From contig PKDD01000021.1 of NCBI GenBank assembly GCA_002862465.1, positions 1 to 51,416 on the forward strand: 51,416 bases of DNA, read 5' to 3'. Under the pieces are notes generated by a model. That model saw only the letters and a list, made by a program, of their open reading frames with translations. It ran no database searches and was not told where the DNA came from. Within the stretch, counting starts at the first letter, position 1. Every line of letters begins with the position of its first letter. This document shows positions 4,854 through 8,604 of the stretch, one piece after another. The translations under genes were made by a program, and so were the position numbers. This DNA is from Haliea sp. (GTDB lineage Bacteria; Pseudomonadota; Gammaproteobacteria; Pseudomonadales; Halieaceae).

Positions 4854-5708
4854 CTAAACGGGGATGGCCACACGAAGCTTTTTCATCGCACTTTGTTCAA
4901 GCTGTCTAATGCGTTCTGCAGAAACACCGTGCTGTGCTGCAAGCTCGTGCAGAGTAGCCTTCTTTTCCGCGAGCCAGCGCTGCGACAGAATGTCACGGCT
5001 ACGTTCATCTAGATTAGCCAAGGCATCGTGAAGCTGCGCTTCACTATTATCCTGCAACTCACTGGATTCTAACAACTGAGCAGGGTCGCCGCTGTGGTCC
5101 TCGAGGTAATACTGGGGGGCGTGCCAACCGTCATCGTCATCAGCATCAATCGGCTGATCGTAGCCAAGGTCACGACTACTCAAGCGACCTTCCATACGCT
5201 GCACTTCGTGCACTCCCACACCTAAATCATTTGCAATGGCCTGCGCCTCATCTGCGCTTAACCAAGATAACGTCTTTTTCGCACTGCGCAGATTAAAAAA
5301 TAATTTGCGTTGTGCCTTAGTCGTGGCAACTTTGACTATGCGCCAGTTTCGCAAAATGAATTCATGCATTTCTGCTTTGATCCAGTGCACCGCGAAAGAC
5401 ACCAAACGAACACCTTTCTCAGGATTGTAACGCTTGACCGCTTTCATCAGGCCAGCATTACCTTCTTGAATCAAATCAGCCTCGGCAAGGCCGTAACCAG
5501 AATAGCTGCGCGCAATGTGCACCACAAAACGTAAATGCGACATTACCAGTTCGCGTGCGGCCTGCACGTTTTCGTTATAATACAAATCTTCACCCAACTC
5601 TCTCTCGCGCTCTATACTCAACACAGGAATACGACTCACAGCCTGCACATAAGCAGACAAGCTGCCTCCAGGAACCATCTGATCAATCGGTTGTAAATTC
5701 TGTTTCAT
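4854..5708 (-). CDS. rpoH: RNA polymerase sigma factor RpoH (sigma-32)
   Basis: Directs RNA polymerase to heat-shock promoters. At 284 residues it equals the E. coli length. Region 2 is clear (LVMSHLRFVVHIARSY, then DLIQEGNAGLMKAVKR and SFAVHWIKAEMHEFI), the sigma-32-specific RpoH box is present (QRKLFFNLR, about residues 132-140), and region 4 ends with a helix-turn-helix (LHELAAQHGVSAERIRQLEQSA). It lies downstream of ftsYEX as in most gammaproteobacteria, but a 156-base gap with its own regulatory sites separates it. That gap holds a perfect CIRCE operator and a sigma-E-like promoter, so transcription is probably controlled by both envelope stress and an HrcA repressor. Confidence 0.97.
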   Translation of the reverse strand: MKQNLQPIDQMVPGGSLSAYVQAVSRIPVLSIERERELGEDLYYNENVQAARELVMSHLRFVVHIARSYSGYGLAEADLIQEGNAGLMKAVKRYNPEKGVRLVSFAVHWIKAEMHEFILRNWRIVKVATTKAQRKLFFNLRSAKKTLSWLSADEAQAIANDLGVGVHEVQRMEGRLSSRDLGYDQPIDADDDDGWHAPQYYLEDHSGDPAQLLESSELQDNSEAQLHDALANLDERSRDILSQRWLAEKKATLHELAAQHGVSAERIRQLEQSAMKKLRVAIPV

Positions 5709-5741
5709 TATTACGTTTCTCTATCTGTCTATGACATAATT

Positions 5742-5768
5742 TTAGCACTCAATGAGTTAGAGTGCTAA
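5742..5768. promoter_or_regulatory. CIRCE operator (HrcA binding site) upstream of rpoH
   Basis: The inverted repeat TTAGCACTC (5742-5750), nine-base spacer, GAGTGCTAA (5760-5768) matches the CIRCE consensus at all 18 arm positions with the canonical spacer length. CIRCE is bound by HrcA, a repressor of chaperone genes. It lies 33 bases upstream of the rpoH ATG and overlaps the predicted -10 and start point of a sigma-E-like promoter, a position suited to repression. A smaller dyad (ACTC AAT GAGT, 5747-5757) is nested within. No hrcA gene is in the window. Confidence 0.92.
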
Positions 5769-5783
5769 TGTCAGAAAAGTTCC
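5757..5783 (-). promoter_or_regulatory. Sigma-E (RpoE)-like promoter of rpoH
   Basis: On the minus strand GGAACTT (5783-5777) matches the sigma-E -35 consensus exactly, and TCTAA (5761-5757) fits the -10 element, separated by 15 bases. E. coli rpoH has a sigma-E promoter (P3) of the same kind, which makes the location sensible. The predicted start point is near 5750, giving a leader of about 42 bases. The spacer is at the short end of the usual range, so this remains a prediction. Confidence 0.6.
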
Positions 5784-5864: not shown

Positions 5865-6848
5865 CTAACGTGGCTCAATACGGGCTAAGTGACGCGACAC
5901 TGCAAGCCAGGCACCTGCTAGGCCGAGCAAGCCACCTAGAATTACGAGATTCAAGCTGCCCATAACTCCAAACCCGCTCAGCTGAAATGCGCTCTCGTAG
6001 AGCATTGCTAGGTCACTTATGGGTTTTTCCAGTGACCACAGAGCGGCTGTTACCAGCAGGGCGGCCAGCACACCTCCGCCGACGCCATACCAGAGTCCAG
6101 TATACAAAAATGGCCTTCGCACAAAGCCGTTACTTCCGCCAATCAGCTTAACGATAACAATCTCATCCCGACGACTTTCAATTGCAAGCCTTATGGTGTT
6201 GCCGAGGATTAGCACCACTCCAACGACCAGCATGCCTCCTATTGCCAAAACCAGGCGGCGACTTAGTGCCATCAGGCTGTTCAGCCGCTGCAGCCACTCC
6301 ATATCCAACACCGCCTCCGCCACATCTGAATGGCCCTGCAACTCCGCACGCAGTGCCGATACGCCGCGTCCATCTAGAGCAGCATCAGGCGTCACCAACA
6401 GCACATCTGGTAACGGGTTTGCCTGCATGCTCGCCAGTACGTCTGCAAAACCTGACAGCGTGCGAAACTCGTCTAAAGCCTCATCGCGCAAAATAGCGCG
6501 TGTCTCGCTAACGTCATCTCGCGCGGCCAACTCCACTTCAATCTCTCGTAATCTATCGAGCGAGACCTCTCCCTGCAAAAAAAGGGAGATTTGTGCCGGA
6601 CTATCCCAGCCAGCAGTTACCCGGGTCATATTGTCCAATGCAACATTCAAACCAACCGGCAAAGCGAGCGCGATACCAATCACCAGCCATGTCAAGAAAC
6701 TGGAGCCCAGGCTGTCGAGCACTCGCATCAGGCTGTCGGCAGCCGACAGGCGGTGGTGCTGTATCCAGGCTTTGACATGCCCTCGCAAGTCCGTCCGGCT
6801 TAAGCTAGCGCCCTCCTTGCGCCGACCAGTGTCTTTTTGACCCTTCAC
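5865..6848 (-). CDS. ftsX: Cell division protein FtsX (permease-like subunit)
   Basis: Membrane partner of FtsE; the FtsEX complex transmits ATP-driven signals to periplasmic amidase activators at the division site. The 327-residue product has a basic cytoplasmic N terminus, a first membrane segment (FLTWLVIGIALALPVG, about residues 50-66), a large periplasmic domain, and three C-terminal membrane segments (about 200-220, 255-275 and 295-315). The TRLAIESRRDEIVIVKLIGG motif before the third segment, here IRLAIESRRDEIVIVKLIG, is typical. Its start overlaps the ftsE stop by four bases, in the conserved ftsY-ftsE-ftsX order. Confidence 0.96.
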   Translation of the reverse strand: MKGQKDTGRRKEGASLSRTDLRGHVKAWIQHHRLSAADSLMRVLDSLGSSFLTWLVIGIALALPVGLNVALDNMTRVTAGWDSPAQISLFLQGEVSLDRLREIEVELAARDDVSETRAILRDEALDEFRTLSGFADVLASMQANPLPDVLLVTPDAALDGRGVSALRAELQGHSDVAEAVLDMEWLQRLNSLMALSRRLVLAIGGMLVVGVVLILGNTIRLAIESRRDEIVIVKLIGGSNGFVRRPFLYTGLWYGVGGGVLAALLVTAALWSLEKPISDLAMLYESAFQLSGFGVMGSLNLVILGGLLGLAGAWLAVSRHLARIEPR

Positions 6849-7510
6849 TGCGCCCTGCCGCTGACCAAGCAGCCTTGGCTTAAAGTAATAATACGGTGAC
6901 GTAAGCGTGAAATAAGAACCAAGTCATGACTGGCGATTAATACGGTGACGCCTACCTGGTTGAATGCCTCAAAAAGGTTCATAATTTCGGCCGACAATGT
7001 CGGATCAAGGTTTCCGGTGGGCTCGTCCGCCAGCAAGATTTTTGGCTTGCCCACCACCGCCCTGGCAATACCTACACGCTGCTGCTCACCACCGGACAGC
7101 GAGATAGGCATGGCTCGCTCTCGATTAAGCAACCCTACTTTATCTAAAGCCGCGCGCACTCTTCGCCCGACCTCTCTAGCCTCGTAACCCGCTATAATCA
7201 GCGGCAGAGCCACATTATCAAATATGGTCCGATCAAACAGCAACTGATGATTCTGGAATACGACGCCTATGCTGCGGCGATGTTGCGGAATATTGCGGGG
7301 GCGGACCCCTGCCAAATTTTGACCGTTCACTATCACTTGGCCGCGACTGGGTCTATCCATCAGCATGATCAGGCGCAACAGTGTGCTTTTTCCGGCACCT
7401 GAATGACCAGTGAGAAAAACGAGTTCATCCTGGGCTATCTCGATGGTGATTTCCCGCAAGGCATCACGACCCTCGCCATAGCGTTTGCTAACTCGGTTAA
7501 AGCTAATCAT
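6845..7510 (-). CDS. ftsE: Cell division ATP-binding protein FtsE
   Basis: ABC-type ATPase that drives FtsX at the septum. The 221-residue product has Walker A GHSGAGKST (about residues 35-43), the Q-loop VVFQNHQLL, signature LSGGEQQRV, Walker B ILLADEPTGNLD and the switch His in IASHD. It overlaps ftsY upstream and ftsX downstream by four bases each, giving a tightly coupled operon. Confidence 0.97.
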   Translation of the reverse strand: MISFNRVSKRYGEGRDALREITIEIAQDELVFLTGHSGAGKSTLLRLIMLMDRPSRGQVIVNGQNLAGVRPRNIPQHRRSIGVVFQNHQLLFDRTIFDNVALPLIIAGYEAREVGRRVRAALDKVGLLNRERAMPISLSGGEQQRVGIARAVVGKPKILLADEPTGNLDPTLSAEIMNLFEAFNQVGVTVLIASHDLVLISRLRHRIITLSQGCLVSGRAQ

Positions 7511-8604
7511 GCAGAGGCGTCACCCTCATCAAACAAGGCCTCAATAAACGTCTCTGCTGCAAAAGGCCGCAGATCGTCGACGGCCTCACCTACACCGATA
7601 AATCGGATTGGAAGCCCGAGTTTTTTCGCGATCGCAAAGATAACTCCGCCTTTTGCGGTACCGTCCAATTTGGTCAACGTCAGGCCTGACACGCCTACCC
7701 ATCGCTGAAAATGTTCGGCTTGAGACAATGCATTCTGTCCCGTGCCCGCATCCAAAACTAACATAATTTCATGCGGTGCAGCCGTGTCGATTTTACGCAT
7801 GACCCGAACCACTTTTTCCAGTTCCTCCATGAGATTATCCTTGTTATGCAAGCGACCAGCTGTATCGGCAATCAGTATATCCACCCTCCTAGCCTGCGCT
7901 GCTTGCAATGCATCAAAAATAACAGACGCGCTATCTGCACCCTTATGTTGAGCTATGACCGGCACATCGTTACGCGCTCCCCAGACCTCAAGCTGCTCAA
8001 CTGCGGCCGCCCTAAACGTATCACCTGCGGCCAGCATGACGGAGTGCCCTGCGCTGATATAATGTTTTGCCAACTTACCAATCGTGGTCGTCTTACCAAC
8101 ACCATTAACGCCCACCATTAAAATGACAAATGGCTGGTGACCATGAACCTCTAATGGGGCTTCACAAGGCCGAAGTAGCGCTAGTAGCTCCTCTTGCAAG
8201 GCACCTTGCAGAGCGTCTGGTCGCATCAGTTCATTGCGTGAAACGCGAGCCATAAGCCGGTCAATAATTTCTACCGTCGCATCAACACCAACATCTGCCA
8301 GCAGCAGTCGCGTCTCCAACTCTTCAAAAAGTTCAGCGTCAATTTCTTTACGGCCCAGAAACAGGGTGCCCAGGCCTTGCAGTAACGTACCACTAGTTCG
8401 TCCCAAGCCACGACGTAGTCGAGCAAAAACGCTGCCTTTTGACAATCCCGCTGGTTCTGGCTCTAGTACTGACTCTGGCTCTGTTGCGCGTACCGCAGCG
8501 TCAGCCGGCTGCACTTGAAGCGAGTTGGCTTCGGCCACTGACGAGTTTATATCAGATGGCGCCTGTGCATCGTCTACCTGGCTTTTACTTTTAAAAAATT
8601 TCAT
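7507..8604 (-). CDS. ftsY: Signal recognition particle receptor FtsY
   Basis: SRP-receptor GTPase that docks ribosome-nascent-chain complexes at the inner membrane. The 365-residue product has a variable acidic N-terminal A domain (about residues 1-65), then the N domain, then the G domain with GVNGVGKTTTIGKLA (P-loop), DTFRAAAVEQL, DTAGR and TKLDGTAKGG. It is the first gene of the ftsYEX operon and is transcribed divergently from rsmD, with 80 bases between them. Confidence 0.97.
   Translation of the reverse strand: MKFFKSKSQVDDAQAPSDINSSVAEANSLQVQPADAAVRATEPESVLEPEPAGLSKGSVFARLRRGLGRTSGTLLQGLGTLFLGRKEIDAELFEELETRLLLADVGVDATVEIIDRLMARVSRNELMRPDALQGALQEELLALLRPCEAPLEVHGHQPFVILMVGVNGVGKTTTIGKLAKHYISAGHSVMLAAGDTFRAAAVEQLEVWGARNDVPVIAQHKGADSASVIFDALQAAQARRVDILIADTAGRLHNKDNLMEELEKVVRVMRKIDTAAPHEIMLVLDAGTGQNALSQAEHFQRWVGVSGLTLTKLDGTAKGGVIFAIAKKLGLPIRFIGVGEAVDDLRPFAAETFIEALFDEGDASA

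Follow-up and report, generated by a model that had tools for sequence, protein, structure and literature searches.

In this Haliea genome, the sigma-32 gene rpoH is preceded by a perfect CIRCE operator, a predicted HrcA site, which, as judged from its sequence and conservation, is a real, conserved regulatory site. The operator overlaps a predicted sigma-E-type promoter of the same gene. The window, the whole stretch of 51,416 nucleotides that was analysed, carries rpoH on the minus strand at positions 4854-5708, with its ATG at 5708. The operator lies 33 bases from this ATG, at 5742-5768, and is a perfect palindrome of 27 bases, TTAGCACTC-N9-GAGTGCTAA, that is assigned to neither strand. The first-pass annotation had described a perfect CIRCE at this position and had called the match far beyond chance, and both statements are borne out. 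A motif search matched 18 of 18 arm positions with 0 mismatches around the nine-base spacer, and this site is the sole CIRCE match in the window at up to 3 mismatches, a threshold at which shuffled sequences average 0.01 matches; a chance origin was dropped on this basis.

The identity of rpoH, which encodes a protein of 284 aa, is given by the NCBIfam model TIGR02392 (388.8 bits against a cut-off of 323.1). Upstream on the same minus strand are ftsY (7507-8604), ftsE (6845-7510), and the immediate neighbour ftsX (5865-6848), which lies 156 bases before rpoH. E. coli rpoH likewise has ftsX upstream.

HrcA and the CIRCE operators of the genome

A genome search for hrcA and for further CIRCE sites, proposed in the first-pass annotation, returned the repressor gene and one other perfect operator. 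CIRCE was sought with up to 3 mismatches across the whole assembly (3.30 Mb in 182 contigs, 97.8% complete) and was found in three places: before rpoH, before groES, and within an ABC-transporter-like open reading frame on contig C39 (L003 844-1668). The last of these has 3 mismatches and is probably a chance match. The operator of groESL, for which control by HrcA and CIRCE is the known case, is located on contig C23, 98 bases before groES, and is as perfect as the one at rpoH. It comes after a TTGACT-N16-TAGAAT promoter (L002, G000:C23, 1470-1560). Directly downstream of the groES operator is a sigma-32-like promoter, CTTGAA-N13-CCCCAA, so that repressor control and sigma-32 control look separable at this locus.

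The hrcA gene is found on contig C74, where it is followed by grpE, and is recognized by TIGR00331 (314.2 bits, cut-off 197.2) and PF01628 (196.8 bits); its product is related to 1STZ (E 8.2e-21). The interval between hrcA and grpE contains a sigma-32-like box, CTTGAA-N14-CCCCAT. No such box turned up before hrcA with either of the two patterns applied, and the whole-genome search found no CIRCE with up to 3 mismatches there. A related arrangement has been predicted in silico in Geobacter sulfurreducens, in which a perfect CIRCE is situated at -51 of rpoH (PMC545781, available part). This bacterium shares with the present genome the perfect CIRCE at rpoH, the hrcA gene, and a CIRCE at groESL, the latter described as the only constant HrcA target in the available part of that paper. 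However, it belongs to another phylum and, unlike the genome studied here, also has a CIRCE before hrcA.

The gene for sigma-E, rpoE, is present as well (TIGR02939, 307.6 bits, cut-off 236.15). At the rpoE locus (L237), one regular expression found no sigma-E promoter pattern, and autoregulation is not required of every sigma-E promoter.

Conservation of the rpoH operator

Within the family, a sample of 55 loci among 98 matches, representing 27 of 28 genera, was compared. Every one of these loci has a CIRCE with at most one mismatch before rpoH (47 perfect, 8 with one mismatch), and hrcA is present in all 75 family genomes of good quality.

Beyond the family, 184 genomes of the class that are at least 90% complete served as the source set; 173 have rpoH, 135 have a CIRCE with up to 2 mismatches somewhere, and 134 have hrcA. 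The census drew on 120 of the 173 rpoH genomes, among the matches listed, with one genome for each family other than that of the Haliea genome. An rpoH gene preceded by CIRCE with up to 3 mismatches occurs in 92 of the 120 families sampled. The rarity implied in the first-pass annotation is not supported, given this count and the earlier prediction in Geobacter sulfurreducens. The best match at the 120 rpoH loci is perfect in 47, has one mismatch in 30, two in 9, three in 6, and six to nine in 28, and none of the 120 has its best match at 4-5 mismatches. Moreover, the operator at rpoH tracks the repressor gene, being present in 89 of 96 genomes with hrcA versus 3 of 24 without it (Fisher p 1.4e-14, a descriptive value because census rows share descent and relatedness was not corrected; the two states were joined by hand, and four of the 89 hrcA calls are fragments below the curated cut-off). 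Seven of the 28 genomes that lack CIRCE at rpoH do have hrcA (G301, G212, G250, G171, G125, G247, and G220).

The three genomes with an rpoH operator in which hrcA was not found are G227 (1 mismatch), G234 (0), and G174 (3). In the first two, either an assembly gap or another reader of the site may account for this state, whereas the third has the kind of site expected from decay. The operator at rpoH might be a relic, inherited although HrcA has ceased to bind it. For the present genome, this explanation is scarcely credible: nothing in favour of it is seen here, and both the predominance of perfect operators in the family and the presence of hrcA in all of its good-quality genomes argue against it.

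A further sample, ordered by RpoH score and containing many complete genomes, has CIRCE at rpoH in 7 of 28 loci of the own class and in 0 of 11 loci of the same order outside the own family, which indicates that the trait, though common, is patchily distributed. Of 20 rpoH genes from other classes of the phylum, none has a CIRCE at up to 3 mismatches; four CIRCE-like arm variants occur there, the best of them before rpoH with 4 mismatches (L268). In two families, represented by L129 and L126, a second CIRCE-like repeat adjoins the first before rpoH.

Promoter elements overlapping the operator

Sigma-E promoters can take the form GGAACTT-N15-TCTAA, and this is what the minus strand in front of rpoH reads, in keeping with a GGAACTT / TCTRA-type promoter whose elements are 15-16 bases apart. 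The putative -35 element GGAACTT (5777-5783, minus strand) is located 8 bases before the operator, and the putative -10 element TCTAA (5757-5761, minus strand) follows at 15 bases. The -10 element straddles arm and spacer, as it is composed of the last two bases of the left arm and the first three bases of the spacer. The operator thus overlaps the predicted sigma-E-type promoter of rpoH, from which the expected transcription start is inferred, and the overlap changes what HrcA would regulate. The sigma-E consensus was compared with E. coli rpoH; because the pattern search at the rpoE locus was empty, the only sources of the consensus for this host are E. coli and the observed conservation. 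In E. coli, the sequence GAACTT-N16-TCTGA, to which the promoter in the window is likened, occurs about 120 bases before the rpoH start codon and is the sigma-E promoter P3 of that gene. E. coli rpoH lacks CIRCE, the best match in 3 kb having 7 mismatches, and a search of the E. coli control genome for hrcA gave no match.

Both promoter elements are conserved together with the operator. In the family, GGAACTT with at most one mismatch is found 7-8 bases from CIRCE in 50 of 55 loci (the five without it are L165, L174, L181, L185, and L187), and TAA opens the spacer in 49 of 55. Across the class, GGAACTT with at most one mismatch is found at 7-10 bases in 48 of the 92 rpoH sites (shuffles: mean 0.76, largest 3), and with up to two mismatches in 65 (shuffles: 5.9, largest 14). 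GAAC sits exactly 11 bases before CIRCE at 53 of the 92, and the sigma-E-type spacing of 16 is the commonest. CIRCE sites at other genes served as controls; these were 33 of 35 non-rpoH sites in 25 of the same class genomes, chosen because their sites were listed, comprising 10 hrcA sites identified by coordinates and 23 groES sites identified by a short motif. GAAC at 9-13 bases marks 65 of 92 rpoH sites versus 1 of 33 control sites, and the spacer begins T-N-A in 45 of 92 versus 2 of 33. The overlap is not universal, since 27 of the 92 class sites have no GAAC at 8-14 bases. The rpoH loci L080 and L146 show a GAACTT...TC-N-RA pattern without CIRCE.

The exact composite of operator and promoter has 48 matches in the GTDB 220 collection, all before rpoH. 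These include genomes of Haliea, Halioglobus, Pseudohaliea, Parahaliea, Chromatocurvus, and Halieaceae bacterium, many titled Gammaproteobacteria bacterium, and one of Spongiibacteraceae; Halioglobus pacificus (L202) and Parahaliea mediterranea (L217) are among the carriers. A first search for the composite in 369 class genomes had given 12 matches, of which 11 lie before rpoH and 1 at groESL.

A second promoter, of the sigma-70 type, is suggested by the sequence of the operator itself. On the minus strand, TGCTAAAAT (5739-5747), composed of right-arm bases and the three that follow, would provide an extended -10, and TTAGCA (5763-5768, minus strand), in the left arm, would provide a weak -35-like hexamer 18 bases before TAAAAT. 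N-A-T follows CIRCE in 46 of 55 family loci. In the class, the extended -10 TGCTAANAT, formed by the right arm and an A-T two bases after the operator, occurs at 63 of 92 rpoH sites versus 3 of 33 controls. Additionally, position 3 of the left arm has changed so that it reads TTG instead of TTA, a better -35, in 27 of 92 class sites, and the mirror position has changed in only 2; this asymmetric drift fits a -35 constraint. Nearly all control groES sites come instead after a TTGA...TATTA-like promoter. The groES operators follow TTGAC...TATTA and, unlike the rpoH sites, come without GAAC and TGCTAANAT.

It could be argued that HrcA acts on rpoH solely via a sigma-70 promoter, either upstream or of the extended -10 type, and that GGAACTT/TCTAA is not used by sigma-E here. 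The drift toward TTG agrees with this, as does the near-equal frequency of TGCTAANAT and GAAC at the rpoH sites (63 and 65 of 92), and N-[AC]-T is found in 22 of the 27 sites without GAAC. However, a sigma-70 promoter alone was dropped because GGAACTT is kept at a fixed distance in nearly all family loci. Moreover, A occupies the third spacer position in 59 of 65 sites that have GAAC but in 13 of 27 without it, as would be expected of a -10 partner, and E. coli rpoH carries the corresponding pattern upstream. An exclusive role for sigma-70 is therefore considered unlikely.

Within the mRNA, the inverted repeat might alternatively form a stem-loop in the 5ʹ leader that alters stability or translation. 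The stem does fold in RNA; yet the stability of the leader does not exceed that of shuffled sequences (z 0.08), with nothing beyond the palindrome's own stem, and a main function of this kind was dropped for that reason. Furthermore, a transcript from the sigma-E-type promoter would start inside the spacer and would not contain the left arm, the letters of the arms are conserved rather than their pairing alone, and the presence of the operator follows that of hrcA. Together, these points make a role in the leader very improbable.

Proposed control of rpoH and its meaning

A DNA operator superimposed on the beginning of the rpoH promoter region is well favoured by the evidence, and HrcA bound to it would block transcription by sigma-E and probably also by sigma-70. 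A dimer of HrcA on this site would mask the -10 element and the expected start of the sigma-E-type promoter, as well as both hexamers of the possible sigma-70 promoter, including the extended -10 in the right arm. With its promoter elements covered in this way, rpoH would be kept from RNA polymerase by simple occlusion. In Helicobacter, HrcA sites overlap -35/-10 elements (PMC6032397, available part).

The HrcA/CIRCE reading put forward in the first-pass annotation stands in that hrcA is present and the operator is conserved where hrcA is, but it missed the overlap with a sigma-E-type promoter. HrcA requires GroEL for activity and loses it when misfolded protein occupies GroEL, as established in Bacillus and Chlamydia; Mogk 1997 and Wilson 2005 are said to document this requirement. 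Misfolded protein would thus inactivate HrcA through a shortage of free GroEL and release rpoH jointly with groESL, and envelope stress would supply sigma-E for rpoH. Transcription of rpoH would then depend on two conditions at once, the availability of sigma-E (or sigma-70) and a scarcity of free GroEL, and a rise in sigma-32 would yield more GroEL, closing a negative loop. The earlier suggestion that a single repressor would govern the level of the entire sigma-32 regulon goes beyond the evidence, because rpoH may have other promoters and sigma-32, in E. coli, is also controlled after transcription. A more extensive proposal stands an even chance of being correct: the operator would hold three signals, namely a sigma-E -10, an extended sigma-70 -10, and the HrcA palindrome over both; rpoH would sense envelope stress and a lack of GroEL jointly; and this would be an early state in the class, of which the E. 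coli sigma-E promoter is a remnant left after loss of hrcA and CIRCE.

The survey of beta-, gamma-, and epsilon-proteobacteria by Permina and Gelfand in 2003 may have named rpoH among the targets of HrcA, so CIRCE at rpoH in this class is not claimed as new. The literature covered on HrcA, CIRCE, and rpoH, part of it in extract and exclusive of that survey, reports no CIRCE at rpoH beyond PMC545781. Within the same coverage, neither the overlap of a sigma-E promoter with CIRCE at rpoH nor its extent across the class was found in print, and the available part of the Geobacter sulfurreducens study describes no such overlap at its rpoH operator (PMC545781). Operator and repressor are of a known kind; their predicted fusion with the sigma-E promoter of rpoH is the part that appears to be new.

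Textbook accounts of sigma-32 control mostly draw on E. coli, a species that lacks HrcA. If the present reading is true, transcription of rpoH in many relatives of E. coli is coupled at one site both to GroEL, by way of HrcA, and to the state of the envelope, by way of sigma-E, and the two classical bacterial heat-shock strategies, repressor and alternative sigma factor, would be arranged in series rather than in parallel. The rpoH site would also offer a plain test of how a single operator can accommodate overlapping promoters that use different sigma factors. Two alarm systems, the heat-shock repressor and the envelope stress response, would then appear to converge on a few dozen bases of DNA.
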